Source: a virus. Taken from it: a DNA stretch of 21,790 nt. The translations under genes and the position numbers were made by a program. The notes beneath the pieces were generated by a model. That model did no database searches and had not been told where the DNA came from. It saw only the letters and a list, made by a program, of their open reading frames with translations. Below are positions 4,329-18,657 of the stretch, one piece after another; within the stretch, counting starts at the first letter, position 1; the number at the start of each line of letters is the position of its first letter. The stretch is taken from positions 1 to 21,790 of IMG/VR virus record IMGVR_UViG_3300048828_000530; one strand, 5' to 3'.

Positions 4329-5420
4329 ATGAGTACTACAGATTTTATGGGCAGAGATGGCTTCATCTGGTTCGCAGGTGTGGTAGAAGATAGAGCAGAC
4401 CCGCTTAAACTTGGCCGTTGCAGAGTCAGATGTCTAGGTTATCACACAGAGGACAAGAGTGTATTGCCTACTTCAGATTTACCTTGGGCACACCCTCTCT
4501 TACCTATTACTTCATCAGGCATATCTGGTATAGGCCAGACGCCACTAGGACTCCTTGAAGGGTCATGGGTCATAGGTTTCTTTAGGGATGCAGATACTAA
4601 ACAAGACGCAGTAATACTTGGGTCCTTACCTGGCAAACCTATTTCTACAGGCGCTCTTAATGCGGCCGAGGGTTTAGGGTTTAGCGATCCCAATGGAGTA
4701 TACCCACGTTATGCGGCCGAGAGTGATGTTAATAGATTAGCACGGAATGACGCAGATAATCAGTCACTCATACTAGAAGCAAGAAAGACCATACGAGCGG
4801 CCTCATATACAAACATACCAACAGGTAACATTATAGAAGTTAAAGATGGCATTGCTGAGATTGACGCAAGTGCAGGTGATGTATGGTCCCTACCAGAAAA
4901 TACCTATGCAACTGAATACCCATACGGCCATGTATATGAATCAGAATCAGGCCACATATTAGAATTTGATGATACACCAAACAAAGAACGTATCCTCTTA
5001 TATCACCATAGTGGGACTGAAACAGAAATTACAGACAAAGGCACAACCAATACGATTATTAAAGATGACCTTAATACCATAATAGAAAAGAATAGTAAGC
5101 ATTACATCAAAGGCAATTCAGACATTACAATACAAGGCCGTCATAAGATAATGCTCAATGCGAATGGCGCTGCAGATAATAACTATGACATACAGGTAGG
5201 ACCTAATGCTAATGTAAATATACAAGTAGATAAAGGTAACATTAACATGGCCGCTTTAGATGGTGATATTAATATGTTTGCTAATAACAACATGAATATA
5301 TCAGTAGGTGGTACATACAAAGTAGTCGCAGGTCAGATATTAGAGACCAGTAAGAGTACAACAACACGTACAGCACAAGGTGAATACCATACGTTTGGGT
5401 CGCCGATTGACCATAACTAG
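4329..5420 (+). CDS. gp5: Baseplate spike protein gp5-like, without lysozyme domain
   Basis: This 363-residue protein has the two outer parts of T4 gp5 (575 aa) but not the lysozyme between them. Residues 11-100 match the OB-fold domain: WFAGVVEDRADPLKLGR, LPWAHPLLPITSSGISGIG and a GSWVIGFFRD strand. Around residue 195 a YPYGHVYESESGHILEFDD segment aligns with the start of the T4 gp5 C-terminal region. The tail then becomes a string of alternating hydrophobic and Asn/Asp strands (NINMAALDGDINMFANNN), the triple-stranded beta-helix needle. The linker at about 105-190 shows no lysozyme active-site sequence. It would form the membrane-piercing spike on the gp27-like hub, capped by the PAAR protein at 16047. 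Base use is odd: nine GGCC words occur in this one gene. Confidence 0.9.
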   Translation: MSTTDFMGRDGFIWFAGVVEDRADPLKLGRCRVRCLGYHTEDKSVLPTSDLPWAHPLLPITSSGISGIGQTPLGLLEGSWVIGFFRDADTKQDAVILGSLPGKPISTGALNAAEGLGFSDPNGVYPRYAAESDVNRLARNDADNQSLILEARKTIRAASYTNIPTGNIIEVKDGIAEIDASAGDVWSLPENTYATEYPYGHVYESESGHILEFDDTPNKERILLYHHSGTETEITDKGTTNTIIKDDLNTIIEKNSKHYIKGNSDITIQGRHKIMLNANGAADNNYDIQVGPNANVNIQVDKGNINMAALDGDINMFANNNMNISVGGTYKVVAGQILETSKSTTTRTAQGEYHTFGSPIDHN

Positions 5421-6318: not shown

Positions 6319-7111
6319 ATACGTTCAATTAATTAGTATGCACAAGAGTGGATCTACTTGGGTGCAAAGTTATATTCATAAAAAGTATAGACAATTTGGT
6401 GTTACGTTGCCACCTGGTAATTTATTTAATGAGTTCTTTTGTGTAAGAAACCATGAAGATAATGAACATGACTTTAGGAAAAAGACAATGACTCAACGTA
6501 TTGAATTATTAAAAGAGTTAAGAGAGTATGGTTTAGAATTAGCACATAAAGCACATGTACCTGAAATCATATCTATATGGCCTTGGTTTAAAACCTTTTA
6601 TAAAGACCATAATATATTAGTTTTAAAAAGACGACATATGTTTACCCATTGGTTAGCAATATTGTTTTATAATTGTATTGGACTTGCAACAGGTCCAAAT
6701 AATGTTAAAGGTAATAACAAAGAAGGTTATACTTATATTACACCATCAAAGACTGATGAAGGTAAATATGGATTTGATGTAGCTGAAGATATTATAAAAA
6801 GCACAATACAAGAATACAAAGTAGAATTTAAATTTAATGAAATATGTTGGAATAACTTTGTTAATAGTATTCGCTTTTTAAATGATGTTGTTATTGAAGA
6901 ATTAGATAAACCACAAATAATATGGACTGAAGATATTACTACAGAATGGTTAGAAGATTATTTTAAAGTTGTTTTGAAAAAACTTCCTACACCTTTTACT
7001 ACCTTTGAGTATAAAACTTATTTTAAACCAGAAGATATGAAAATCATAAGAGAAATATTTGAAGAACGTTTTTACAATGAATTTCAATACTATGGTTATG
7101 AATTAAAGTAA
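6284..7111 (+). CDS. PAPS-dependent sulfotransferase-like protein
   Basis: The protein has 275 residues from the ATG at 6284; an ATG at 6269 would add five. The N-terminal strand-loop-helix [19 protein letters not shown] (about residues 13-31) is the 5'-phosphosulfate loop of sulfotransferases (PKSGTTW type). The [18 protein letters not shown] segment (111-128) sits where the 3'-phosphate motif (RNPxDxxxS) lies, but it lacks the usual Asp and Ser. Family members move sulfate from PAPS to a hydroxyl or amine on sugars, lipids or proteins. The start overlaps the end of the ferredoxin gene. The end overlaps the convergent PP-loop gene by 9 nt. The substrate is unknown, and the weak second motif leaves room for a non-enzymatic or divergent role. 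Confidence 0.7.
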
Positions 7112-7948
7112 ATCAAATGCCCATGCTTTTTCATAACACCAAAAGCATTGCCAACACCATTCAGTAAAGTTATTAGTTTGATTAGGTCCACCAACACAAC
7201 TACGTGTTATAGGATATAGGTCTTTCATTAAACCTTCTTCTTTATAGATACTTGCAATAAATTTTTTAGATTGATTAACCCAAGGTTTATATACATTGTA
7301 TTTTAATTCAGGTTCTTTACCACCCGTATCACGTCTTGCTTCACCTCTTATTCTAGCAATGTTCTTTTCATCAAACTTAATATTAGGAAACTTCTTTATT
7401 GCATAATCACTAAATTGTTTTCTTACTTCCATAGGTGGGTTTGCTGACATACCATCTAAACGTAAAGGTCTATCTAAACGTGCCATAAATTCATCCGAAC
7501 CATCATCTATCTGGTTACACTTTGACATTTGTTGTAAGTTCAATGTTTTATATTCAGGTCTTGTATCTATAAATTTTTGTGCCTTTTCATAGTGTACAGG
7601 ATCCTTATCATCAAAATCTATTATTGTATGTTCACGTATATTTGCAAAAGGAAACTTGTTCTTTATAAACTCAACTATTTCAGCAGCTGCGTCAGCGTCT
7701 TTTGGTGCGTGTACATCTCTAAACGTTAATGGATAGATGTCAATATTAATAAAGTGTTTTGCAGTTAGATATAATGCAGCTGCAGAATCACAACCACCTG
7801 ATAATGAAGCAACAATTGTTTTAGGTATGCCATCTTCATCTAGTGCTACATCAGCCTTTGCTCTATCTCTATAAGGTGATGTTTCCATTAAATCTAATAA
7901 GTGTTTTCCATAGAAAGGAATTGTTATGTTGTTATATGTTATATTCAT
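7103..7948 (-). CDS. QueC-like PP-loop ATPase with Cys4 zinc site
   Basis: From the ATG at 7948, which overlaps the preceding stop as TAATG, the protein has 281 residues. SLSGGCDSAAAL (49-60) is the ATP-pyrophosphatase PP-loop. Near the end, the KPWVNQSKKFIASIYKEEGL segment and then SC (C251), C265, C268 and C271 followed by an Ala-Trp-Ala-Phe end reproduce the QueC C-terminal zinc motif (C...CxxCxxC). QueC adenylates a carboxylate and replaces it with amide and then nitrile to make preQ0. Some QueC-like proteins instead join deazaguanines to proteins. At 281 residues it is longer than typical QueC, with an inserted segment at about 120-215. No folE, queD or queE accompanies it, so the substrate is probably not the standard one. 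It is the last gene of the minus-strand operon. Confidence 0.75.
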   Translation of the reverse strand: MNITYNNITIPFYGKHLLDLMETSPYRDRAKADVALDEDGIPKTIVASLSGGCDSAAALYLTAKHFINIDIYPLTFRDVHAPKDADAAAEIVEFIKNKFPFANIREHTIIDFDDKDPVHYEKAQKFIDTRPEYKTLNLQQMSKCNQIDDGSDEFMARLDRPLRLDGMSANPPMEVRKQFSDYAIKKFPNIKFDEKNIARIRGEARRDTGGKEPELKYNVYKPWVNQSKKFIASIYKEEGLMKDLYPITRSCVGGPNQTNNFTEWCWQCFWCYEKAWAFDLL

Positions 7949-8709
7949 TATTTTAATGCTCCGTGTCTTACTTTTCTCCAATGTGTCAACTCTGGTGTTA
8001 CATTAAAGTAAGTTTCTTTTTTTATTTTTTTTACTGTATGCTTGTCACTAGGCTTTTGAAAGTTAGCATATGCTTCTTGTACGTTCTTTCTTAAATTTCT
8101 ACTTCTAGGATCAAAACCTCTATTAGTATTAATTAGTAATAAAGTTATACCTTCTTTTTCAGCCATCTCTTTTGCTTGTTCTATTTCATGTTCATTGTAT
8201 CCAAATATTATATATTGCCAAACTATCGGGTGACCCATGGCAACACCCATTTTCATAGTTTCCCATACTTGTTCAAAGTTAGAACCTATACGATACAATT
8301 CTGATTTCTTATCTAAACCATCAACACCAAAGTACCAACAGTTTTCTCCTACACCATAACTATATGCTTTTTCCCACCACTTATCATCCATGCCTTTTGT
8401 ATTAGTACCATTAGTTGCAACTCTTAAACCTTTACCTAAACCATCCATCATTTCTAAAAATGTTAAAAATTGTGGGTGATATATTGGGTCTGATATTTGA
8501 CCACAAAAGGTTATTTGATGTTCATAGTAGGATAGTATTTTTCTAAACTCATTAGGATCAATGTCAAATGATCTTGCTATTCTAGGTAGACCTTCTACCT
8601 TTTGTCGTAAACATTGTGGGCAACGTAATATACACCTATGAGATAAATCCATATTAGGTGATGAGAAACGTTGGTTACGAATATAGAAATCTGAATGTTT
8701 TTCCTTCAT
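7948..8709 (-). CDS. Radical SAM core enzyme, no SPASM domain of its own
   Basis: This 253-residue protein carries the standard radical SAM motif: C26, C30 and C33 in LSHRCILRCPQC (CX3CX2C), which bind the 4Fe-4S cluster that cleaves S-adenosylmethionine. TFCGQISDP (near 68-76) stands where the GGEP strand usually lies. The RVATNGT strand (near 96-102) is the typical beta-3/4 region of the partial TIM barrel. The C-terminal 80 residues are basic and have no Cys cluster. The start overlaps the end of the SPASM-like gene as ATGA, so the two are probably made together and may form one functional enzyme. It needs a reductant, for which the phage ferredoxin is a candidate. It lacks the CX14CX2C spacing of QueE. 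Confidence 0.88.
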   Translation of the reverse strand: MKEKHSDFYIRNQRFSSPNMDLSHRCILRCPQCLRQKVEGLPRIARSFDIDPNEFRKILSYYEHQITFCGQISDPIYHPQFLTFLEMMDGLGKGLRVATNGTNTKGMDDKWWEKAYSYGVGENCWYFGVDGLDKKSELYRIGSNFEQVWETMKMGVAMGHPIVWQYIIFGYNEHEIEQAKEMAEKEGITLLLINTNRGFDPRSRNLRKNVQEAYANFQKPSDKHTVKKIKKETYFNVTPELTHWRKVRHGALK

Positions 8710-9053
8710 ATTTTATAATTATCTTTTTCTCTATTGCCACATTTATATTGACATTGTTTCAAAGCACAACTAGGATTATTTATTAGTGTATCAAAGAAGT
8801 GTTCCCATTCTTCAGAACCAAATATGTCTTCTAACTTATCGTTATTCTTTAATGCAAGGTGTTCATCTTTTAAATGAAATACTTCCTCTACGCCATGATC
8901 ATTTTTAGGATCATCTAACCAACAACAAGGTAACATATAACCATCTGCTGTGTAAGCTGCAGGCTTATGATAACTCTTTGGCTCATATACTAAACAACGA
9001 GGTTTAATTTTAATATCTTTAGGATCTATTTCTTTACTACTAAATTTGCTCAT
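8706..9053 (-). CDS. Free-standing SPASM/twitch-like Cys-cluster protein
   Basis: This 115-residue protein has six Cys in a SPASM-like order: C20 in KPRCLVYE, C43 and C44 in ADGYMLPCCW, then C96, C101 and C105 in SCALKQCQYKCGN. In SPASM radical SAM enzymes this C-terminal region (including a G-x-x-PCC strand) binds auxiliary 4Fe-4S clusters. Here it stands alone with no CX3CX2C core, and the next gene is a radical SAM core that lacks it. The pair looks like a two-subunit version of a SPASM enzyme, with the order reversed. A sigma70-like promoter (9059-9086) lies directly upstream, and the stop overlaps the next start as ATGA. Confidence 0.7.
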   Translation of the reverse strand: MSKFSSKEIDPKDIKIKPRCLVYEPKSYHKPAAYTADGYMLPCCWLDDPKNDHGVEEVFHLKDEHLALKNNDKLEDIFGSEEWEHFFDTLINNPSCALKQCQYKCGNREKDNYKI

Positions 9054-9058
9054 CTTTC

Positions 9059-9086
9059 ATTATATCATATCTATTGTTAAAGTCAA
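9059..9086 (-). promoter_or_regulatory. Sigma70-like promoter TTGACT-N16-TATAAT for the SPASM/rSAM/QueC-like operon
   Basis: On the minus strand TTGACT (9086-9081) is followed after 16 nt by TATAAT (9064-9059), close to a consensus bacterial promoter. The -35 box overlaps the stop of the nitroreductase gene. The predicted start of transcription falls within a base or two of the ATG at 9053, so this mRNA would also have almost no leader. Confidence 0.65.
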
Positions 9087-9784
9087 GCAGGTAGCCATTT
9101 AATTATCTTATTAATAGAAGGCTTATAGTCATATGTAATTGGGTGTATATCTCGTCTATATTTTTTACCATAACCAACGGATATCATTACATTAACTCGT
9201 CTATCAACAAAAGGTAATTGCTTCCATACCTTTGTATCTAATTGCTTATTAAAATTGCAAGTGTATGTTGTATCAATACCTTTTTCAATTGCTAAACTTC
9301 TAAAATTCATTGCAAATAATCCACATTCAACACAAATATTTTCTCTACTATCAGCAAGACCTTTTTCTGTACAAGGGTCATAAAATATACCTCTACTCCA
9401 AGCGTCTTTTTGATATGGACTTGTTAGTTCAGATTTTCTTTGTGTTACAATTAAAACATATGGGGCGGTATTCAAACTTCTATACATAACATTTTCTCTT
9501 GGTATACCTTTTTTTTCATTTTCGTGCCCTATATCTACATAATCTTTATTACCTATATTAGAGAGTGTATCATTTGCTGCCGACCCTTCAAAAAGAGCGT
9601 CTTTATATTTTTGATGTTCTGGACCTAAAACGTGTACTTGCCAAGCAGCCATATTATTTTTTGATGGTGTAATTTCATAAGTCTTTTCTAATAAGTCTTT
9701 TAATACTTCTTTATCAACAGGTTTTTCTTTGTAAGTATAAAACTCATGTACGTGTCTTGCTTTTTTTACTGTTTCGTATATCAT
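9083..9784 (-). CDS. Nitroreductase-family flavoprotein
   Basis: This 233-residue protein has nitroreductase-fold features. An early Arg in the first helix (KKARHVHEFY) is followed by TPSKNNMAAWQVHVLG (40-54, the S-x-x-N-x-Q-x-W FMN-contact region), then a hydrophobic APYVLIV strand. Next comes a CGLFAMNFRSLAIEKGI helix-loop, and near the end VMISVGYG followed by basic residues. Family members bind FMN and reduce or oxidise small molecules with NAD(P)H. In some natural-product clusters they dehydrogenate peptide heterocycles. The start overlaps the stop of the twitch radical SAM gene (ATGA), so the two are co-translated. The substrate is unknown; a redox step in the cassette's pathway is the best inference. 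Confidence 0.8.
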   Translation of the reverse strand: MIYETVKKARHVHEFYTYKEKPVDKEVLKDLLEKTYEITPSKNNMAAWQVHVLGPEHQKYKDALFEGSAANDTLSNIGNKDYVDIGHENEKKGIPRENVMYRSLNTAPYVLIVTQRKSELTSPYQKDAWSRGIFYDPCTEKGLADSRENICVECGLFAMNFRSLAIEKGIDTTYTCNFNKQLDTKVWKQLPFVDRRVNVMISVGYGKKYRRDIHPITYDYKPSINKIIKWLPA

Positions 9785-11343
9785 ATAATATTTGTATCTG
9801 AAGTTTCTTCAGCTTCCTTTACTGATTTATCCCATGTTTGAAATATTTTTGCTTGTTCGTTATGATCTCTATGTTTAGTAGGATCGTAATATGGTTCTAA
9901 TTCAGGAAACACTTCAAACAAATGTGATTCCCATTTTGTGCCTTCATAGAATTTATCTGCCTTTAACATATAATCAAATACGTTTTGTAAATCTACATCT
10001 GGATCAGCAGGTCTTTCTAATGCAGCTATTATATCAGGCCAGTCTTTATATTTTGGTATTAATGACTTCTTAATTTCTTCTGGTAAGTTATTAGGTCTTA
10101 AATGTTTAGGTTTGTCAATCATTGCCCAATTCAATTGATCAATAACAGGATTGTCTTTACACCAATCAATAACTTCATAAAATCTCATAACTGAAAGATT
10201 AGAAACTAAACCATTGAAGTCAACAACAACGTTAGGGTGTTGACGACACATCTCTATATTTTCTACAACTTCTTCCCATTCAGTTCTTCTTCTCATGTAT
10301 TCAATAGTCTTACCAATACCATCTACTGAAGCAACCATAGATACATTTTTAAAATGAGGAATGTAATTAAATATATTGTGTCTACCTTTTTTAGTTTTAG
10401 TTAAGTTAGTTTGATATTTTAAATAGATATGTTTTGCATGGCCACTTTCAATAACCTTTTCTAATAACTCATAATGTTTTTTCATAATCAATGGTTCACC
10501 ACCAATTACTTTAATACTTCTAACATATGGTAATAATTCCATAACTTGTTCAGTAACACCTTCAGTTTTATCTGCCATAACAAGTTTCATATAATCTTCT
10601 CTAACTTTACCACGTTCACCAAACACAGCGTCATTCCAAACACCTTTTTCAGCAACACGTTGTCTAGTTGTAGAATTAGCATGTACACACATAAAACAAT
10701 CAAGGTTACATTCTGACCCAAATACTTTTAATTGTATTTCTAAAATTCTTTCATCAAAGGCATACTGACCACTTGCGTTATATAGTTCAACATTCTTTTG
10801 AATATTATCCCAAAACTCTTTATCGTTAGTATGAATTTTTAAGCAGTTTGTTCTTCTACTTCTACCATATATTTCCTCATCACTTCTACATCTTCGGCAT
10901 ATATCATTTACTGCTTTATGATCTGATTTAGGATCAAGCATTTCTTTACGAATACTATTCATGTATTCACTATCAACCATCCATTCTTTTAATGATGTGT
11001 TCTTAATAGTTTCATGTTCAGCGTCTTTACCAAAACAACATGCTCTATATTTACCACTTATCTCATTATAGACTTGTGTAAATGGTATTGTACAAAACCA
11101 TATATCTTTATCTTTTGCTTGTTGTAGAATTGATTTGTCTGATGGTGGTTGACCACGTACGGTTTTACCTGCTTTAAGTTTAGTATAGTCTGATAAATTA
11201 TTCCACTTCCACCATTCTTCAGTATTTACATTACCAGGAGAAGAACGGTCACCAGGGCCACCTTTTGTGAGCATGTCCTCAACTTGTTTGTCGTGCATGT
11301 CATCAATATCTTTCACCACTTTTTTATTTAAATCAGTTTCCAT
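9781..11343 (-). CDS. Twitch-domain radical SAM enzyme (N-terminal twitch)
   Basis: This is a 520-residue protein. Residues 80-170 form an N-terminal twitch-like Cys module: C84 in IWFCTIPF, C102 and C103 in YRACCFG, and C149 and C152 in ICRRC, followed by a basic stretch (YGRSRRTN). The radical SAM core follows, with C212, C216 and C219 in SECNLDCFMC (CX3CX2C), and IKVIGGEPL (277-285), the SAM-contact GGE motif. This matches the family known as twitch domain-containing radical SAM proteins, which are seen in marine phages. The reaction is unknown; auxiliary cluster modules in this superfamily often go with peptide or protein modification. GATAAATA lies 5 nt before the ATG. The gene heads the minus-strand run and overlaps the nitroreductase start. 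Confidence 0.88.
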   Translation of the reverse strand: METDLNKKVVKDIDDMHDKQVEDMLTKGGPGDRSSPGNVNTEEWWKWNNLSDYTKLKAGKTVRGQPPSDKSILQQAKDKDIWFCTIPFTQVYNEISGKYRACCFGKDAEHETIKNTSLKEWMVDSEYMNSIRKEMLDPKSDHKAVNDICRRCRSDEEIYGRSRRTNCLKIHTNDKEFWDNIQKNVELYNASGQYAFDERILEIQLKVFGSECNLDCFMCVHANSTTRQRVAEKGVWNDAVFGERGKVREDYMKLVMADKTEGVTEQVMELLPYVRSIKVIGGEPLIMKKHYELLEKVIESGHAKHIYLKYQTNLTKTKKGRHNIFNYIPHFKNVSMVASVDGIGKTIEYMRRRTEWEEVVENIEMCRQHPNVVVDFNGLVSNLSVMRFYEVIDWCKDNPVIDQLNWAMIDKPKHLRPNNLPEEIKKSLIPKYKDWPDIIAALERPADPDVDLQNVFDYMLKADKFYEGTKWESHLFEVFPELEPYYDPTKHRDHNEQAKIFQTWDKSVKEAEETSDTNII

Positions 11344-11348
11344 AAAAT

Positions 11349-11356
11349 TATTTATC
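11349..11356 (-). promoter_or_regulatory. Late promoter octamer GATAAATA before the twitch radical SAM gene
   Basis: On the minus strand GATAAATA ends exactly 5 nt before the ATG at 11343, the same spacing as at gp48 and gp25. It sits just downstream of the stop of the hydrolase gene. There is no room for a Shine-Dalgarno site, so a leaderless late message is predicted. Confidence 0.6.
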
Positions 11357-11357
11357 T

Positions 11358-11933
11358 CTATATTATCTGTTTATCATATTTGATAAAGTTAACTCTCATA
11401 ACGTCCTCTGCTATATGAATATTTTTTAACTTATTATCTTTTATAAAAGTAAACACTTTACCAAACGCTCTCATATTTTTTTCAATATCATTTATACCAT
11501 GGTGGGCATATTCAGCACACATAGGTAATAGTATAGTTGTCTTATATTGTTTCCATGAAAAATATTTTGCACTACACAATTTAGATTTTATCACACATCC
11601 TGCAGTATTGCAACCTCCTATGACTATTTGAGTATCGGTATTATTCATACTAAAGTTAAGTTTTTCAAGTACTAACTTTTCTATGCTTTCTACACTTAAA
11701 CTATCATCTGGTATTTCTAGCCATTGCCACTTATCCTCTATGGCCATACTTTTTAGTTCTTGTAATTTTTTATCTCTTACACTATTACCAATAGATAATA
11801 TGATATTAGCATTTCTATCTATGCTCGTGTCGTCTATGATATGTTGAAGTGTGCTGTATCGTAATTTGTTTACATACTCATCAGCAAGTATTTTATGACC
11901 ATCAAAATCAATTAGTAATATAACCGTTTTCAT
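11358..11933 (-). CDS. Degenerate isochorismatase-like (cysteine hydrolase) protein
   Basis: I take the ATG at 11933 because the late octamer TATAAATA lies just upstream of it. The longer frame to 11984 would read through that promoter. The 191-residue protein starts MKTVILLIDF, like the first strand of isochorismatase-fold hydrolases with their catalytic Asp (D9). It has QIVIGGCNTAGCVIKS at about 102-117, resembling the family's GxxTxxCVxxT nucleophile loop with C113. A TTILLPMCAEYA strand follows. The family hydrolyses amides and related bonds (nicotinamidase, isochorismatase). The third catalytic residue, Lys, is not clear, so the protein may be inactive or divergent. It could belong to the neighbouring pathway, but there is no operon proof. 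Confidence 0.45.
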   Translation of the reverse strand: MKTVILLIDFDGHKILADEYVNKLRYSTLQHIIDDTSIDRNANIILSIGNSVRDKKLQELKSMAIEDKWQWLEIPDDSLSVESIEKLVLEKLNFSMNNTDTQIVIGGCNTAGCVIKSKLCSAKYFSWKQYKTTILLPMCAEYAHHGINDIEKNMRAFGKVFTFIKDNKLKNIHIAEDVMRVNFIKYDKQII

Positions 11934-11938
11934 ACTGA

Positions 11939-11946
11939 TATTTATA
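11939..11946 (-). promoter_or_regulatory. Late promoter octamer TATAAATA (minus), divergent pair
   Basis: A perfect TATAAATA on the minus strand ends 5 nt before the ATG at 11933. It is separated by 1 nt from a plus-strand GATAAATA. Confidence 0.65.
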
Positions 11947-11947
11947 A

Positions 11948-11955
11948 GATAAATA
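11948..11955 (+). promoter_or_regulatory. Late promoter octamer GATAAATA (plus), divergent pair
   Basis: GATAAATA on the plus strand ends 5 nt before the ATG at 11961. With the octamer at 11939-11946 it fills the 27-nt gap between two divergent genes. Confidence 0.6.
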
Positions 11956-11960
11956 AAAAC

Positions 11961-12857
11961 ATGAGTAACAAATATTTCCCTCAAAATTTTTATCTAAATA
12001 AAAACGTGAATAAGAAATACTTAATAGTAAGTGGTTGTAGTTGGGCTGACCCATATACGGATTCTGAAGATCCTAGGGTTTCACATGATATTGTAAAAGG
12101 TTATAATAGATGGTTTAATATATTAGCTGATAAGTTAGATATGCAACTAATAAATTTTGGTAAATATTCTTCAGGTAATGAATATATATGTTCTTCTTTA
12201 ATTGATAACATATCAGCAATGGGTGAAAAGAAAAAAAGTAACATTGGTTTAGTTATTCCTGCTTGGAGTGAGGCTAAACGTACAGATTTTGAATTTAGAC
12301 AAAGTGAAAATGATTACTACGTAAAAAATTTATTTGAAAACAAATATAAAGAATATAGATATAATCCAAAATATATTTGGGATAGTATATTATATACAGA
12401 CCCTTTAAGAGGTGATATGTTTTATAGGGTAAAACAAAGTATTAGATATATGTACATGCTACAGACGTTTTTAAAACATAATAATATTCCTTATACAATG
12501 GTACAATCTCTGCCTTTAGAAAAATTGCCAAATTTAGGTACAGAATTTAATTTAGGTCTTACATTAGGTACACCACAAAGATCATTACAAAGTGCTAAAG
12601 AAGTTAAAACTATTTTTAGACAACAATTGGCTGAAGAATTGTCACAGTTTCCTATGTACAATTTAATTGATAAAAATAATTTTATAAATTGGCCAATATT
12701 AAATTCTTCGTTGTATAAAAAACTAGATAGAGAAAAAGACTTTATATCTAATTTAAATGAAAAAAAAAATGATTTTAGACAAGACAATCATCCTAATCAA
12801 TCAGGCCATAATAAAATAGCAGATATTATTCTTAACAATATAAATATTACATTATAA
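11961..12857 (+). CDS. SGNH/GDSL-type hydrolase
   Basis: This 298-residue protein has the blocks of SGNH hydrolases: YLIVSGCSWAD with the likely nucleophile S27 (block I), NFGKYSSGNEY with G72/N73 (block II), IPAWSE near 99-104 (block III position) and DNHPNQSGH with D275 and H277 (block V). This fold includes esterases and deacetylases acting on lipids, sugars and peptidoglycan, and O-acyl groups are common substrates. No signal peptide is visible, so it acts in the cytoplasm or is carried in the virion. It lies divergent from the isochorismatase-like gene behind its own late octamer. Late expression argues for a role in particle assembly, in modifying a structural protein or glycan, or in the end stage of infection. 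Confidence 0.8.
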   Translation: MSNKYFPQNFYLNKNVNKKYLIVSGCSWADPYTDSEDPRVSHDIVKGYNRWFNILADKLDMQLINFGKYSSGNEYICSSLIDNISAMGEKKKSNIGLVIPAWSEAKRTDFEFRQSENDYYVKNLFENKYKEYRYNPKYIWDSILYTDPLRGDMFYRVKQSIRYMYMLQTFLKHNNIPYTMVQSLPLEKLPNLGTEFNLGLTLGTPQRSLQSAKEVKTIFRQQLAEELSQFPMYNLIDKNNFINWPILNSSLYKKLDREKDFISNLNEKKNDFRQDNHPNQSGHNKIADIILNNINITL

Positions 12858-13481: not shown

Positions 13482-13640
13482 GTGTCTAAAAAAAGATATA
13501 CTCGTAGCGAATACGGAAATTATCAACCTAATAGTCCTTTAACTCAACACTATATTACAACAGGTGCAATATTGCCTGAAAAGAAAGAAGTACCCAAGGT
13601 TGTAAAGAGAAAGAGAAGACGTATTTTAACAAGGTTCTAA
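13482..13640 (+). CDS. Small basic protein (52 aa), GTG start, unknown
   Basis: A GTG start 13 nt after a perfect late octamer opens a 52-residue frame. It has a basic N-terminus (SKKRYTRSEYG), a Pro/Thr-rich middle and a strongly basic end (KVVKRKRRRILTRF). Its last 15 nt overlap the end of the convergent beta-lactamase-like gene. No ATG alternative exists in frame. The charge suggests nucleic-acid or membrane contact. No family is recognised. Support comes from the promoter and the balanced composition. Confidence 0.5.
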   Translation: MSKKRYTRSEYGNYQPNSPLTQHYITTGAILPEKKEVPKVVKRKRRRILTRF

Positions 13641-14825
13641 AACAAAGTTTCCGTCATCTTTATATTTTCTACAAACTGGTCTACCATTATCTAAAGTGTC
13701 TGAAGTTAATTGTAGATAGATCAGAGCATAGTAGTCGTAATTTCTGTCGGTTGAATGGGCAGTTATAATTTTGTTATTTTCAAAATCAATTACTACTTGT
13801 TGACCCCAAGCACCATCCATCATTAAGATAGGTCTATCTTCAACACCAACAGCATCCCATAAAAACTGACCACCATATCTTAATGCAACTCTATGGTTAC
13901 CATTAAACTTATTTGTTTTATAATCTCTATCAATTCTATTTTCATACATTGTTTTTAAATACTTACCAACGCAAGTATCATTCTTCCAGTGATTTAACAT
14001 TAAGTTAGCAATTCTTACATAATCGTATCTGTCAGCATAGAAAGAATATCTACCGTACTCACCTTTTGATCTATTACCTGTATTGTGTTTTTCTAATGAC
14101 TTACCAAAATAAACTTTTTTAGCAACTTTAGCGTCTTCTACAAATATCTTATGTAATAACTTATTCCAATCATCACCAGTTTTGTAAATAACATAGTTCA
14201 TAATAACATTGGTTGCCATGGCACTATAGTTAAAATAAACACCAGGTTCTAAACCATCTTTATTTTTAAAGTATGCTTTCATAGCAGATTTAATAGGTAT
14301 AGTATTAATATTTTTACCATTACCTTTTATTCTATTATCTTTATTGTGTATTCTATCACCTACTATTTCACCATCACCTGCCTGCATATTAAGTAAGTTA
14401 ATTAATTTTTGATTTTCATATAAAGTACCTGCAACCGTTGGGTAATCTATTGAATCAAAAACCGTATGATTTATATAACCACCACATACAGCATAACCTG
14501 TAACCAAAGATACTAAAGATTTACCAACCGAGTGTGAAGGATAAGGTCCTGTATATTTTGATTTTCTGTTTTCATCAATTAAAATTTTATTGTTTTCAAA
14601 TAAGATATAAGATACAAGACCAGTTTTCTTATCACTAATTTGTTCTTTAACTTTTACAGATAAATTATTCTCCTGTAAATCAATCTCAAAATCATAGGTT
14701 TCATTTTTCTTATCACCTATTTTATATTTGTGCATACAATCAAAACAATATTTCTCACCAGCAAATACTACGCCGATCATTAATATTGAGTGAATTACTA
14801 TAATAAAAATCCAAAGTCTAAACAT
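13626..14825 (-). CDS. Exported serine hydrolase, class C beta-lactamase/NylB-like
   Basis: This 399-residue protein begins with a hydrophobic segment (residues 4-22, ending VVFAG) that looks like a signal peptide or membrane anchor. The serine-lactamase motifs follow in order: SVGK (S99 to K102), YSA (Y200 to A202, the YxN position) and DGAWGQQ (337-343, the position of the KTG strand, as in 6-aminohexanoate-dimer hydrolases). This fold covers beta-lactamases, penicillin-binding proteins, carboxypeptidases and esterases. In a phage, an exported enzyme of this kind could act on cell-wall peptides during lysis or against other phages, or on a surface polymer. It is the last gene of the minus-strand operon that starts at 15618. 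Confidence 0.85.
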   Translation of the reverse strand: MFRLWIFIIVIHSILMIGVVFAGEKYCFDCMHKYKIGDKKNETYDFEIDLQENNLSVKVKEQISDKKTGLVSYILFENNKILIDENRKSKYTGPYPSHSVGKSLVSLVTGYAVCGGYINHTVFDSIDYPTVAGTLYENQKLINLLNMQAGDGEIVGDRIHNKDNRIKGNGKNINTIPIKSAMKAYFKNKDGLEPGVYFNYSAMATNVIMNYVIYKTGDDWNKLLHKIFVEDAKVAKKVYFGKSLEKHNTGNRSKGEYGRYSFYADRYDYVRIANLMLNHWKNDTCVGKYLKTMYENRIDRDYKTNKFNGNHRVALRYGGQFLWDAVGVEDRPILMMDGAWGQQVVIDFENNKIITAHSTDRNYDYYALIYLQLTSDTLDNGRPVCRKYKDDGNFVLEPC

Positions 14826-14826
14826 A

Positions 14827-15105
14827 TTATATTCCCATCCCTTCTAATCTAAAATCTACAACAGGTACAAAGTCGTAAGCATATTCTTCATCAGCACCCA
14901 TAGGACCTGACATCTTAACAACGCAATCATTTTTCTTTCTGTTGTCAAAGAAAGTCTGTAAAGCAAGTTTTAAACTATCTGCCATTTGTTGATGTACAGA
15001 TACATTAAACTTCGTAAACAAGGTACCACAACAAATTGTAATACCATCAGCAGACTCTGCCTTTGCAATGTTCATAATATCTTTTTTTAATTGTGTATCT
15101 TTCAT
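14827..15105 (-). CDS. Conserved-looking protein of unknown function (92 aa)
   Basis: AAGGAG lies about 5 nt before the ATG at 15105, a strong ribosome-binding site. The 92-residue protein is soluble. It begins with Lys-rich helices, has a central ICCGTLFTKFN stretch with adjacent Cys 25 and 26, and ends with an acidic-to-hydrophobic strand run (EEYAYDFVPVVDF). The gap to the beta-lactamase-like start is 1 nt. I do not recognise it. Confidence 0.7.
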   Translation of the reverse strand: MKDTQLKKDIMNIAKAESADGITICCGTLFTKFNVSVHQQMADSLKLALQTFFDNRKKNDCVVKMSGPMGADEEYAYDFVPVVDFRLEGMGI

Positions 15106-15114
15106 AGTGTCTCC

Positions 15115-15327
15115 TTATTTAATTTTAACTACGCCTGTTAATCTTTCACATTTATAGTCGTTGATAATTTTATTAATAGCATTTTTCATATTAATGTCAA
15201 TTCTTTTTAAAAGATCATCTTCAACTTGAACGATTTCCTTCACATCTTTAGACATATCTTTAATTTTTTTATATGCAATGTTTCTTACGATTGATAAATT
15301 GTTTACCATAATGTTTTGATTAGCCAT
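15115..15327 (-). CDS. Small helical protein (70 aa), unknown
   Basis: AAAAAGGA lies about 11 nt before the ATG at 15327. The 70-residue protein is rich in Lys, Ile, Val and Asn and predicted to be mostly helical. It has no Cys cluster or other motif apart from a single Cys near the end. It lies between two coupled small genes in the same operon. Confidence 0.6.
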   Translation of the reverse strand: MANQNIMVNNLSIVRNIAYKKIKDMSKDVKEIVQVEDDLLKRIDINMKNAINKIINDYKCERLTGVVKIK

Positions 15328-15331
15328 AGTG

Positions 15332-15460
15332 TTATATATCCTTTTTAGTTTTCATTATTTGTATTACTTGAAATAGAGATTTTGTTTTAAGTAACTTATT
15401 TCCGTAAGCAACTCTTTTTTCAAGTTTCTTAATTGCAGTTTTTAACTTTTTATTATTCAT
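15332..15460 (-). CDS. Small Lys-rich protein (42 aa)
   Basis: The ATG at 15460 overlaps the stop of the upstream membrane protein as TAATG, and the stop lies 4 nt before the next ATG. The 42-residue product (MNNKKLKTAIKKLEKRV..., ending TKKDI) is basic and helical. The tight coupling on both sides makes it likely to be translated. Function is unknown. Confidence 0.55.
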   Translation of the reverse strand: MNNKKLKTAIKKLEKRVAYGNKLLKTKSLFQVIQIMKTKKDI

Positions 15461-15618
15461 TATTTGTTAGATAAACTGATTGTTGTTAATCCTGTAATAA
15501 CACCAATAAGTGTCATTGTAGCACCGAGTAAATATTGATCAGTTTCAATAGCACCAGTAGCACCGATCATACTCATTACAAATATAACGGCAAAAAATGT
15601 TGTCATTTTGTCTATCAT
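15460..15618 (-). CDS. Small two-span membrane protein (52 aa)
   Basis: I chose the ATG at 15618, which has AAAGGA well placed 7 nt before it. An in-frame ATG further up would read through the promoter. The 52-residue protein has hydrophobic stretches at about 5-20 (MTTFFAVIFVMSMIGA) and 29-47 (LLGATMTLIGVITGLTTIS) joined by a short acidic loop (AIETDQ). It is the first gene of the operon that ends in the beta-lactamase-like protein, so a holin-like or export-helper role is possible but unproven. Confidence 0.6.
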   Translation of the reverse strand: MIDKMTTFFAVIFVMSMIGATGAIETDQYLLGATMTLIGVITGLTTISLSNK

Positions 15619-15683: not shown

Positions 15684-15736
15684 GCAAAAAATGGAAAAAA
15701 ATGGCATATGTTCTTGTTTTGTTCTCTAAAAACCCT

Positions 15737-15772: not shown

Positions 15773-16057
15773 ATGAAAAAAATGAGAATTTTTAAGTTCT
15801 GGAACGAATCAGGTGACGAAAAAGAGAAGGAAGCCATGAGTTTGAAGAAAGCCACCATGTCTGTACAAGGGGATTTCAAGGATGAGTTTATTGGTGTTGA
15901 ATATATTAGTAAAAAAGGCAAAAAAATCGTAGATTCGGTAAAAATACCAGTTGGACGAAAAGTACGTCAATCAATTGAGATAGAAAAGAAAAGAATGTTA
16001 CTAAAAGCCGAAAGAGAACAAAGGCAAGCAGAGGCAAAACAAAGATATGGCAGTTAG
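15773..16057 (+). CDS. Small Lys/Glu-rich protein (94 aa) before the spike-tip gene
   Basis: GAGGA lies 5 nt before the ATG. The 94-residue protein has a short aromatic N-terminus (RIFKFWN), a basic beta-like middle (EYISKKGKKIVDSVKIP) and a C-terminal charged helix (IEKKRMLLKAEREQRQAEAKQ) that may form a coiled coil. The last 11 nt overlap the PAAR gene. It shares the late promoter with PAAR and may help assemble the spike tip. No family is recognised. Confidence 0.7.
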   Translation: MKKMRIFKFWNESGDEKEKEAMSLKKATMSVQGDFKDEFIGVEYISKKGKKIVDSVKIPVGRKVRQSIEIEKKRMLLKAEREQRQAEAKQRYGS

Positions 16058-16346
16058 AGAAGGCGATCCGTTGACTACAGGTCATGCTTGTACTGGAATT
16101 ACAACTTTAGCAATATCTTTAGTAAGAACAGTAAAAGCAAACGGTATTGTAGGTGCTGTACAAGGCACTCCTACTGTTGCACACCCAGCTCCACCTACTC
16201 CTATCTGTCCTGCTCATATAGCTGCATTAAATAAAGGATCAAATAACGTTAAGATAGGTGGTATACCTTGGGGACGTGTAGGACATAGTGCTGACGCAGG
16301 TGCAATGATTTCAGGTTCTTTAAACGTATTAGTAAATGGTCTGTAA
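16047..16346 (+). CDS. gp5.4: PAAR-domain spike-tip protein (gp5.4-like)
   Basis: The 99-residue protein matches the size of T4 gp5.4 (97 aa). It starts with the PAAR pattern: GDPLTTGHAC, a Gly-rich strand series, and HPAPPTPICPAH at about 46-57. NVKIGGIPWGRVGH follows at about 67-80. H13, H57, H80 and a Cys (C15 or C54) could bind the single metal that stabilises the cone. PAAR proteins cap the gp5 needle and form the sharp point that breaches the membrane. It lies in a different block from gp5, separated by the accessory region, but the two must meet in the particle. Confidence 0.88.
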   Translation: MAVREGDPLTTGHACTGITTLAISLVRTVKANGIVGAVQGTPTVAHPAPPTPICPAHIAALNKGSNNVKIGGIPWGRVGHSADAGAMISGSLNVLVNGL

Positions 16347-16364: not shown

Positions 16365-16796
16365 ATGGCATACTCAAACTATGACGCAACTACAACTAAC
16401 AAAAGTAAAAGATCAAATAGAATCTATAGTGATTTAAATTTGAGTTTTACTAAAAATCCTGCTACAAAGGATGTTGCAAAATTATTTGATGTACAAGCAA
16501 TTAAAAGAAGTGTTAAGAATATTATCTTAACAAACAAATACGAAAGACCTTTTAATTCTGACTTCGGTTGTAATTTAAGAGGTTTCTTATTTGAGAATAT
16601 TACTGAACCTTTATTAGTAGTAATAAAAGATAGAGTATCTATGGCGATTGAAAAGTATGAGCCAAGAGTTTCAGTAGAAGATGTTGTTGTTCAAAGTGAA
16701 GATGGTAGTAACGGCATTAGTATTATGGTTTCATTTAAAATAAATGGTGTTGAACAACCAGTATCAGTATCAACATTTTTACAAAGAGTAAGATAA
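16365..16796 (+). CDS. gp25: Baseplate wedge subunit gp25
   Basis: The 143-residue protein (T4 gp25 has 132) has the gp25/TssE layout: SVKNIILTNKYERPFNSDFG, then a helix (LRGFLFENITEPL). The YEPRV strand holds the conserved EPR motif (residues 99-101), which is needed to anchor the sheath to the wedge. Gp25 links gp53 and gp6 and is the nucleus of sheath assembly. Gp6 starts 1 nt after the stop. Confidence 0.95.
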   Translation: MAYSNYDATTTNKSKRSNRIYSDLNLSFTKNPATKDVAKLFDVQAIKRSVKNIILTNKYERPFNSDFGCNLRGFLFENITEPLLVVIKDRVSMAIEKYEPRVSVEDVVVQSEDGSNGISIMVSFKINGVEQPVSVSTFLQRVR

Positions 16797-16797
16797 A

Positions 16798-18657
16798 ATG
16801 GCAAAGCAACATAGATTAGATATTTCAGAATTAGATTTTGAAAATATAAAAGGTTCACTTAAAAGATTTTTAGCAAATCAAAACGAATTTAAAGATTACG
16901 ACTTTGAAGGAAGTTCTCTTTCAATTTTATTAGACACATTAGCATACAATACACATTACTTGGCTTACAATGCAAACTTTGTAGCAAACGAAATGTATAT
17001 GGACACAGCACAATTAAGATCAAGTGTTGCGTCATTATCTAAATTAGTAGGTTATGTACCTAACTCTGCTAGAGCACCAATCGCTGATTTAAAATTAGTA
17101 ATCAATGATGGTACAGGATCATCAATTACAGTTCCTGCAGGTACAAAATTTACTTCATCAATAGATGGTTTAACTTATACGTTTGTTTCTGTAGCAGATA
17201 AAGTTGTACAACCAGTTGATGGTATTTACACAGCACAAAGTTTAGATGTTTACGAAGGCACATATGTAACATACACTTATACAAATGATAGTGATGACAT
17301 AGACCAAAGATTTTTAATACCTAGTGACAGAGCAGATACAACTACAATAAAAGTTGTAGTACAAAATAGTGCTTCTGATACTACATCAAGTACATATACA
17401 AAAGCAACTTCTATTACACAATTAGATGGTGACTCTAAAGTTTATTTCTTACAAGAAGCTGAAGACGGTCAATTTGAAATATACTTTGGTGATGGTGTCA
17501 TAGGACAAAATTTAGATGATGGTAACATTATTGCTATAAGTTATGTTGTTACAAACAAAACAGAAGCTAACGGTGCAACATCATTTACATTATCTGGTTC
17601 AATATCAGGTTTCAATAATGTAACGGTTACAGTTAACTCATCAGCACAAGGTGGTGCTGATCCTGAAGCATTAGAAAGTATAAAATTCAATGCACCTAAT
17701 TTTTATGCGTCACAAGATAGAGCAGTTACGGTAGAAGATTATAAAACAAAAGTAAAACAACTTTATGCTAACACACAATCAGTTAGTGCTTGGGGTGGTG
17801 AAGACGCTGAAACGCCATTCTATGGTAGAGTTTATCTTTCTATATTACCAACAAGTGGTTCTAACTTAACAGACTCTACAAAAGATTCTATTGTAAAAGA
17901 ATTAAAAAAATATTCAGTTGCTTCAGTAACACCAGTTATTATTGATCCTGAAACAACAGATTTAATTTTAACTTCTACGGTTAAGTTTGATGAAAAGACT
18001 ACACCAAAAACTGCTGATACAATTAAATCAAATGTAATTACAACTTTAACAAATTACAATTCAAATACTTTACAATCGTTTGATACTATATTCAGATTTT
18101 CAAAACTTATTGGTCTGATTGATGATACAGATGATAGTATCTTATCAAACATAACAACAATTAAATTAAGAAAATCTTTTTTACCTACAATCGGTAGTTC
18201 TACAAAATATTCAATTAACTTTGCTAACGCATTATACAATCCACACTCTGGTCACAATACTGCTTCAGGTGGTATTTTAGAATCTTCAGGATTCAAAGTT
18301 GATGGCGATACAACAAACGTATGGTTTTTAGATGATGATGGACAAGGTAATGTAAGAAGATATAGATTAGATGGTGCTGTAAGATCATATGCTAATAGTA
18401 CACAAGGTACTATAAACTATTCTTCAGGTCTAGTTGAAGTAAACTCTTTAAATGTTTCTAATATAGAAAATATTAGAGGTGCAGCTAGTACAGTTATTGA
18501 AGTAACGGTTAAACCTAATTCAAACGATATTGTTCCTATCAGAAATCAAGTATTAGATATTGATGTTGCAAACAGTTCAGTTACAGTTGAGGCTGATACA
18601 TTAGCAGGAGGCTCAGCAAACGCTGGTATAGGATATACCACGACTAGTAGTTATTAG
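16798..18657 (+). CDS. gp6: Baseplate wedge subunit gp6
   Basis: The 619-residue protein is close to T4 gp6 (660 aa). The N-terminus (DFENIKGSLKRFLANQNEFKDY, DFEGSSLSILLDTLAYNTHYLAYNANFVANEMYMDTA) is the gp6/J-family helical signature. A beta-rich middle with DGVIGQNLDDGNIIAISYVVT follows, then an EDYKTKVKQLYANTQSVSAWGGED segment. Gp6 dimers form the inner ring of the baseplate. The gene comes directly after gp25, as in many T4-like phages, and belongs to the same transcription unit. Confidence 0.93.
   Translation: MAKQHRLDISELDFENIKGSLKRFLANQNEFKDYDFEGSSLSILLDTLAYNTHYLAYNANFVANEMYMDTAQLRSSVASLSKLVGYVPNSARAPIADLKLVINDGTGSSITVPAGTKFTSSIDGLTYTFVSVADKVVQPVDGIYTAQSLDVYEGTYVTYTYTNDSDDIDQRFLIPSDRADTTTIKVVVQNSASDTTSSTYTKATSITQLDGDSKVYFLQEAEDGQFEIYFGDGVIGQNLDDGNIIAISYVVTNKTEANGATSFTLSGSISGFNNVTVTVNSSAQGGADPEALESIKFNAPNFYASQDRAVTVEDYKTKVKQLYANTQSVSAWGGEDAETPFYGRVYLSILPTSGSNLTDSTKDSIVKELKKYSVASVTPVIIDPETTDLILTSTVKFDEKTTPKTADTIKSNVITTLTNYNSNTLQSFDTIFRFSKLIGLIDDTDDSILSNITTIKLRKSFLPTIGSSTKYSINFANALYNPHSGHNTASGGILESSGFKVDGDTTNVWFLDDDGQGNVRRYRLDGAVRSYANSTQGTINYSSGLVEVNSLNVSNIENIRGAASTVIEVTVKPNSNDIVPIRNQVLDIDVANSSVTVEADTLAGGSANAGIGYTTTSSY

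Follow-up and report, generated by a model that had tools for sequence, protein, structure and literature searches.

The window analyzed here is a 21,790-base IMG/VR fragment (IMGVR_UViG_3300048828_000530) in which an ORF predicted to encode a 399-amino-acid serine hydrolase, starting with ATG, lies on the minus strand at exactly positions 13626 to 14825. The product is annotated as an exported-looking NylB/PIB-1-like enzyme of the class C beta-lactamase fold on the basis of the ORF, alignments, a structural model, fold matches, profile-profile alignment (hhalign), and copies in SAR11 genomes.

Genomic context of the hydrolase ORF

The hydrolase ORF is located between undoubted phage genes. 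T4-type tail genes around it include those for a tail-tube cap, a wedge subunit, a gp5-like baseplate hub (4329 to 5420, plus strand), a PAAR-motif spike-tip protein (16047 to 16346, plus strand), and the baseplate wedge proteins gp25 (16365 to 16796, plus strand) and gp6 (16798 to 18657, plus strand). The best cultured matches of the window gp6 were to Pelagibacter phage Mosig (60.0%) and then to HTVC008M (54.4%). The interval between gp5 and gp25 contains an LpxH-like hydrolase, an annotated phosphate ABC transporter protein, and tRNAs in Mosig and an endonuclease V, an outer membrane porin, and a methyltransferase in HTVC008M. Based on the gp6 similarity to these two phages and the varied gp5-gp25 content of both, the window comes from a T4-like pelagimyophage, in which the hydrolase gene is cargo in the region bordered on one side by gp5 and on the other by gp25. 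Mosig (EXVC030M) and HTVC008M are phages of the same type with the same cargo region, which is occupied by different genes.

The hydrolase is encoded by the last of five consecutive minus-strand ORFs (15618/15687 to 15460, 15460 to 15332, 15327 to 15115, 15105 to 14827, and 14825 to 13626) separated by gaps of no more than 9 nucleotides. The first ORF (15460 to 15618) codes for a 52-amino-acid protein with two hydrophobic stretches, as judged by eye; its ATG at 15618, preceded by AAAGGA, was chosen by eye over the listed TTG start at 15687. It is followed by ORFs of 42 (15332 to 15460), 70 (15115 to 15327), and 92 (14827 to 15105) amino acids, all on the minus strand, the last of which directly precedes the hydrolase and is retained by some phages but not by others. 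These small companion ORFs differ among phages, and the hydrolase is retained. The original prediction had described an operon with small membrane proteins, opened by a two-span membrane protein, closed by the hydrolase, and driven by a sigma70-like promoter. The tight run, the terminal position of the hydrolase, and, by eye, the two hydrophobic stretches of the first ORF were borne out, while the plural was an overstatement, as only that ORF appears to be membrane spanning. The promoter did not hold up: sigma70-like sites between positions 11000 and 16500 occurred at chance level (33 sites, versus 34.8 expected in shuffled sequences). A candidate late-promoter motif, TATAAATA, was likewise dropped (6 occurrences, versus 5.98 expected).

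Other ORFs were noted in the same region. A second minus-strand cargo block (7103 to 11984) includes ORFs annotated as encoding a radical SAM protein (9781 to 11343) and a weakly QueC-like protein (7103 to 7981), among others. A 298-amino-acid protein with a below-threshold match to DUF6071 (E = 1.4e-4) is encoded on the plus strand at 11961 to 12857, adjoining the hydrolase block. A plus-strand ORF of 52 amino acids (13482 to 13640; cluster c43), kept in several of the phages, converges on the hydrolase ORF, with a 15-base overlap at the stop of the latter.

Predicted active-site residues, cysteines, and selection

Sequences of 51 family members were aligned, and the motifs that had been read as marks of an active enzyme, SVGK (residues 99 to 102), YSA (200 to 202), and DGAWGQQ (337 to 343), proved to be strongly conserved. 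Residues S99, G101, K102, S103, Y200, G338, and G341 were identical in 51/51 members, and Q342 was identical in 50/51. Conservation among viral copies was counted over 35 viral rows, with each position scored where letters covered it. The predicted nucleophile Ser99 (14529 to 14531, minus strand) and the predicted general base Lys102 (14520 to 14522, minus strand) were each present in 32/32 such rows, and the predicted catalytic tyrosine, Tyr200 (14226 to 14228, minus strand), was present in 33/33. Variation of the catalytic Ser or Lys among phage homologues had been proposed as the sign of a structural role; as both residues were kept in every covering viral copy, that reading fails. The third active-site motif, G338-x-x-G341-Q342 (13800 to 13814, minus strand), lies at the position of the class C KTG motif and aligns with the G-x-x-G-Q of PIB-1-like proteins; a Cys replaces its second Gly in three viral rows. 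The hydrolase thus has SxxK, a catalytic Tyr, and GxxGQ, with YSA and GxxGQ found in place of the Y-x-N and K-T/S-G motifs of class C enzymes.

The N terminus (residues 1 to 22; 14760 to 14825, minus strand) contains approximately 16 hydrophobic residues ending in V-F-A and, by eye, reads as a type I signal peptide, in agreement with the exported-looking N terminus originally predicted. Two cysteines, Cys114 (14484 to 14486, minus strand; 32/32 viral rows) and Cys285 (13971 to 13973, minus strand; 34/34 viral rows), were invariant in all 51 members and may form a disulfide with each other. Just past the signal, a Cys27-x-x-Cys30 motif (14736 to 14747, minus strand) was missing both cysteines together in 7/51 rows, consisting of five close host copies and two paralogues. 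The invariance of the first pair and the joint loss of the second suggest disulfides and, hence, export of the hydrolase.

Values of dN/dS were between 0.14 and 0.44 in 12 of 13 sequence pairs; the thirteenth value (0.53) came from almost identical sequences with a dS of 0.008. Given the invariant catalytic set and the low dN/dS, these alignments are most naturally read as those of an enzyme under purifying selection. Variable residues were concentrated at positions 151 to 200, 241 to 250, and 301 to 311, between the conserved motifs.

Fold and family assignment

An AlphaFold2 model of the hydrolase was built from a 29-sequence alignment (A3) and had a pLDDT of 78.3 and a pTM of 0.81, with less confident parts in residues 121 to 180 and 301 to 320 (block means of about 60 to 80). 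It replaced an earlier model built from 11 close sequences (pLDDT 54). The top Foldseek matches of the model were 4gb7, PIB-1, and NylB (E values from 1.3e-13 to 3e-11). VIA Z scores were 26.3 for PIB-1 (313 residues; root mean square deviation, 3.5), 23.3 for 4gb7, 22.9 for NylB, and about 21 (at most 21.5) for class C beta-lactamases; across the 50 entries listed, they ranged from 20.9 to 26.3, placing the protein within the class C beta-lactamase-type fold. Over the fold match, the protein was 13% identical in sequence to PIB-1.

Sequence searches of standard databases gave little. The window protein matched no Pfam family even at an E value of 0.1, it had no match in PHROGs, and it had a single weak class C match in NCBIfam (E = 0.047). 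Direct matches to PF00144 at E values of up to 1 were found for only 23/51 members, with a best E value of 0.0027. Because the Pfam gathering score was not reached, the hydrolase was filed as a divergent relative of this family rather than as a member. A phmmer search of the window protein against solved structures returned nothing at an E value of 1. Against the same structures, the sole match of the A1 profile was a chance match to a ribosomal protein, and the top match of the A3 profile was an adenylate cyclase-like chain (E = 0.035) that was rejected, as it covered only 55 residues and had no Ser/Lys pair in register. NylB entries ranked behind that chain with A3 (E values of 0.61 and up), and class C beta-lactamase entries in the PDB were matched by profile only at an E value of about 1. 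In the match of the A2 profile to NylB (E value of about 0.2), S99, K102, and Y200 aligned to S112, K115, and Y215, the catalytic residues of NylB.

The family could be linked to PF00144 through intermediate proteins. When 398 Pseudomonadota genomes were searched by profile, 26 had matches at E values of up to 1e-5; one of these was the SAR11 centre genome, and the matches in the others lay mostly in open frames of about 400 amino acids. Two of these Pseudomonadota proteins were checked, and they matched PF00144 at E values of about 1e-39, with one matching PIB-1 at 4e-73. From 11 loci of such PF00144 relatives, 9 ORFs were extracted and 8 were aligned. When A3 was compared by hhalign with these eight NylB/PIB-1-like proteins, the E value was 2.5e-11, and S99/K102, Y200, and G338-x-x-G341-Q were in register. 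The model, the fold matches, and the profile-profile alignment therefore agree with the NylB-like, class C beta-lactamase-type fold originally predicted, and the hydrolase family is a new divergent branch of NylB/PIB-1-like serine hydrolases. It adds to the beta-lactamase-fold hydrolases a branch that has been overlooked by standard annotation, since Pfam, PHROGs, and NCBIfam yield no confident name for it.

Several features distinguish this branch from its relatives. The best fold match, PIB-1 (8rlj), is a serine hydrolase from Pseudomonas aeruginosa that is related to class C beta-lactamases, and PIB-1/PF00144 relatives in Pseudomonadota share the order of SxxK, catalytic Tyr, and GxxGQ with the hydrolase. 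In the SAR11/phage branch, unlike in PIB-1, two cysteines never vary, the signal is usually followed by a CxxC, and Pfam scores are near background. PIB-1 is extracytoplasmic, and NylB, the 6-aminohexanoate-dimer hydrolase (1wyb family), is cytoplasmic. Class C beta-lactamases (AmpC, ADC, and MOX) have SxxK and the catalytic Tyr in common with the hydrolase, but they have YAN and KTG where the hydrolase has YSA and no KTG.

Distribution in phages and SAR11

Relatives of the hydrolase were found on 40 distinct IMG/VR contigs (17, then 8 more, and then 15 more). On the first 17, the hydrolase ORF was beside shared phage gene families, and three separate viral contigs encoded a protein 100% identical to that of the window. 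Two further T4-like phage groups carried a relative beside replication/repair genes. No match to the hydrolase was found in 50,697 phage records, and a tblastn search of the phage records with the copy from the second phage type was likewise negative. The words “lactamase,” “hydrolase,” and “peptidoglycan” do not occur in the main text of a paper on pelagimyophages (PMC7029224). Literature searches did not find SAR11 together with 6-aminohexanoate, and a search for 6-aminohexanoate with “auxiliary metabolic” found the term in a reference list only.

The insertion sites in these further groups were beside a gp45-type sliding clamp gene (L063, 4989 to 6071) and beside uvsX (L066, 4992 to 6125). 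At least one of the 40 IMG/VR contigs (L127, 3566 to 4843), which contained a longer paralogue type known from SAR11 (33%), may be of host origin despite its viral label; the long SAR11 paralogue, used as a query against viral sequences, had no match.

SAR11 bacteria are the most abundant in the ocean. A scan of genome contigs identified 42 loci in SAR11 single-cell and metagenome-assembled genome contigs, all assigned to Pelagibacter or Pelagibacteraceae. The window protein was up to 84% identical to SAR11 copies in the best segment. Homologues were found in 78/397 sampled genomes of the SAR11 order, with a close one (≥71%) in 19/397. At the class level, only 3/289 genomes matched at 1e-10, and two of these three had already been counted at the order level. 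The SAR11 copies occupied five or more chromosomal sites, and in SAR11, too, the gene is accessory. In the cases examined, one site was flanked by typA and groEL, a second had an xsc/oxidoreductase pair on one side and an M23 protein on the other, and a third followed a pta-like gene. A nuclease-like gene (named by eye) and soxG bordered a fourth site, and genes for a gamma carbonic anhydrase and a PNPOx-like protein (named by eye) bordered a fifth. Host neighbors were rejected as a guide to function because they differ among the SAR11 sites.

With close homologues in the chromosome of the likely host, the hydrolase gene is, as far as sequence comparison can tell, a host-derived (SAR11) gene carried as phage cargo and not a phage invention. 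The original description of an enzyme on a phage accordingly stands with respect to its place among phage genes, but the gene is a SAR11 one that has been swapped repeatedly, as described below. Overall, the earlier observation was confirmed and its interpretation was partly supported.

Among the SAR11 loci, the typA-groEL interval (L023, L028, L037, and L055) carried, in addition to the hydrolase, an assortment of singletons and thus resembles an insertion hotspot. SAR11 relatives at about 30 to 40% identity, in frames of 420 to 480 amino acids, were common. On one contig (L059, 6427 to 9011), tandem SAR11 paralogues of 478 and 380 amino acids (33% and 43% identity with the window protein, respectively) lay upstream of a recA-like gene.

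Exchange of hydrolase sequences between phages and SAR11

Phylogenetic analysis of 51 rows placed virus and host sequences in an intermixed arrangement, with five changes between them, of which at least four were forced by well-supported branches. This tree left out the window copy (L001), exact duplicates (L003, L004, L009, L016, and L017), and truncated sequences (L018, L056, L057, and L058). In a second tree with 38 of the 51 rows (10 phage and 28 host rows), a single virus clade was rejected (p-AU = 6.2e-40). Phage copies were thus nested among host copies, even though the 10 phage rows of the second tree all came from one phage locus. Viruses and bacteria appear to have exchanged versions of the hydrolase repeatedly.

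In at least one phage, the exchange was limited to the gene. The hydrolase gene of phage L006, a single 5.6-kb metagenomic contig, was 93.2% identical in DNA sequence to that of SAR11 locus L019 over 1,160 bp, and the two loci had no match elsewhere. The sister phages L006 and L014 had gp6 proteins that were 100% alike and hydrolases that were 72 to 74% alike; their DNA was 95 to 100% identical over the gp6-side flank and 97% identical just downstream, versus 71 to 84% within the gene. Similarly, phages L015 and L008 were 99% alike in gp6 and 74% alike in the hydrolase. Two host pairs (L026/L060 and L019/L036) had flanks mostly 90 to 97% alike around a gene about 75 to 86% alike. Phage and host copies are similar enough to recombine.

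That swapping is peculiar to the hydrolase was considered and rejected, as other cargo genes of the same phages were also mosaic; some neighboring cargo genes were 59 to 63% alike in phage pairs with gp6 proteins 99 to 100% alike. The recombination rate of Pelagibacter is described in one study as among the highest in bacteria (PMC9599517). With mosaic phage cargo and heavy recombination in SAR11, the hydrolase swapping may be ordinary.

Signal peptides and mature domains had different histories. Among host pairs with mature domains less than 80% alike, signals were 78% identical in the 48 same-site pairs, compared with 26% in the 383 pairs from different sites. None of 2,000 label shuffles gave a difference as large, although the shuffles ignore relatedness among genomes, so this count is not a strict probability. 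The proteins of phages L010 and L012 were 97% alike over their whole length and near identical from about codon 20, with signals 55% alike. Signal peptides therefore track genomic location, and mature domains track other lineages. The C-terminal tails were mosaics of a few modules, with the tail of the window protein resembling those of SAR11 locus L021 and phage L007. Mature domains thus probably move between phages and five or more chromosomal sites in SAR11, with every site keeping a signal peptide of its own.

A broader reading, which is conceivable yet doubtful, is that pelagimyophages serve as vehicles that reshuffle an exported SAR11 hydrolase, with modular mature domains that break near the signal junction, frequency-dependent sampling of specificities, and retention of each carrier's own export signal. 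If true, it would mean frequency-dependent selection, for instance via rival phages or changing dissolved peptides. A parallel is offered by cyanophage psbA, a host gene on T4-like phages for which repeated phage-host recombination is described (PMC3900582). Unlike psbA, the gene here encodes an exported-looking SAR11 hydrolase that is patchy even in hosts, and its signal stays with the location as the mature domain moves. An exported-looking hydrolase that phages and SAR11 share and exchange provides a specific instance in which gene flow between the two can be tested.

Predicted function and alternatives

The gene is probably a host-derived auxiliary gene for a SAR11 periplasmic amide or ester serine hydrolase, a divergent NylB/PIB-1-like enzyme carried in the gp5-gp25 cargo region of pelagimyophages. 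We infer that the protein would be exported by the Sec pathway and its signal would then be removed. Ser99, activated by Lys102 and Tyr200, would attack an amide or ester carbonyl; an acyl-enzyme intermediate would form, and water would release the product. During infection, the phage copy may supplement host periplasmic hydrolysis of small amide/peptide or ester compounds or may substitute another specificity, to the presumed benefit of the phage. Hydrolysis of such small compounds is favored because the nearest folds are those of PIB-1 and NylB and because the SAR11 gene lies outside wall- or lysis-related clusters at four of five sites.

An envelope-altering role that excludes competitors is unlikely, though it is a serious rival. 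The enzyme would strip an acyl or amide group off a molecule on the surface of the infected cell and thereby lower adsorption of other phages. The high allelic diversity and repeated swapping of the hydrolase fit selection by rivals. Variability is clustered between the conserved motifs, and the same cargo region holds the LpxH-like hydrolase of Mosig and the outer membrane porin of HTVC008M. Neutral recombination in a highly recombining host, however, accounts for the swapping equally well, and dN/dS was well below 1.

Also rather unlikely, but again a serious rival, is a peptidoglycan-active enzyme, similar to a DD-peptidase or endopeptidase, that loosens or remodels the SAR11 wall for lysis. 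The fold family includes D-alanine carboxypeptidases (5e2h and 5evl; Z of about 21) and penicillin-binding-type esterases (Lsa45; Z of 22.6), and a periplasmic location would fit. The gene for an M23 peptidoglycan peptidase-like protein lies next door at one SAR11 site, but at only one of the five; the sites otherwise have unrelated neighbors, which is ill suited to a lysis gene. Moreover, the closest folds belong to PIB-1 and NylB rather than to DD-peptidases, and no holin or lysin was named among the window proteins scanned.

A true beta-lactamase that shields infected cells from beta-lactam compounds is very unlikely. The fold, SxxK, and the catalytic Tyr are all present, and PIB-1 is described in a review as hydrolyzing imipenem. 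The same review describes it as not inactivating other beta-lactams, and the hydrolase is only distantly similar to it in sequence. As the KTG motif is replaced by GxxGQ, beta-lactamase activity is not supported.

A virion component is highly improbable. The gene sits among baseplate genes, and mycobacteriophage minor tail proteins in BFVD have a beta-lactamase-fold domain matching that of the hydrolase (E values of about 2e-7 to 3e-7), but the hydrolase is encoded on the strand opposite to the baseplate genes. A tail role is further opposed by the signal-like N terminus, the kept catalytic residues, the closely similar SAR11 chromosomal copies, and the relatives beside replication/repair genes in two further phage groups. 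Misassembly of host DNA into viral contigs, which the similarity to SAR11 copies (best-segment identity of up to 84% for the window protein and 93% in DNA for L006) might suggest, is almost certainly not the explanation, given the 17 viral contigs with the hydrolase beside shared phage gene families and the identical protein encoded by three separate contigs.
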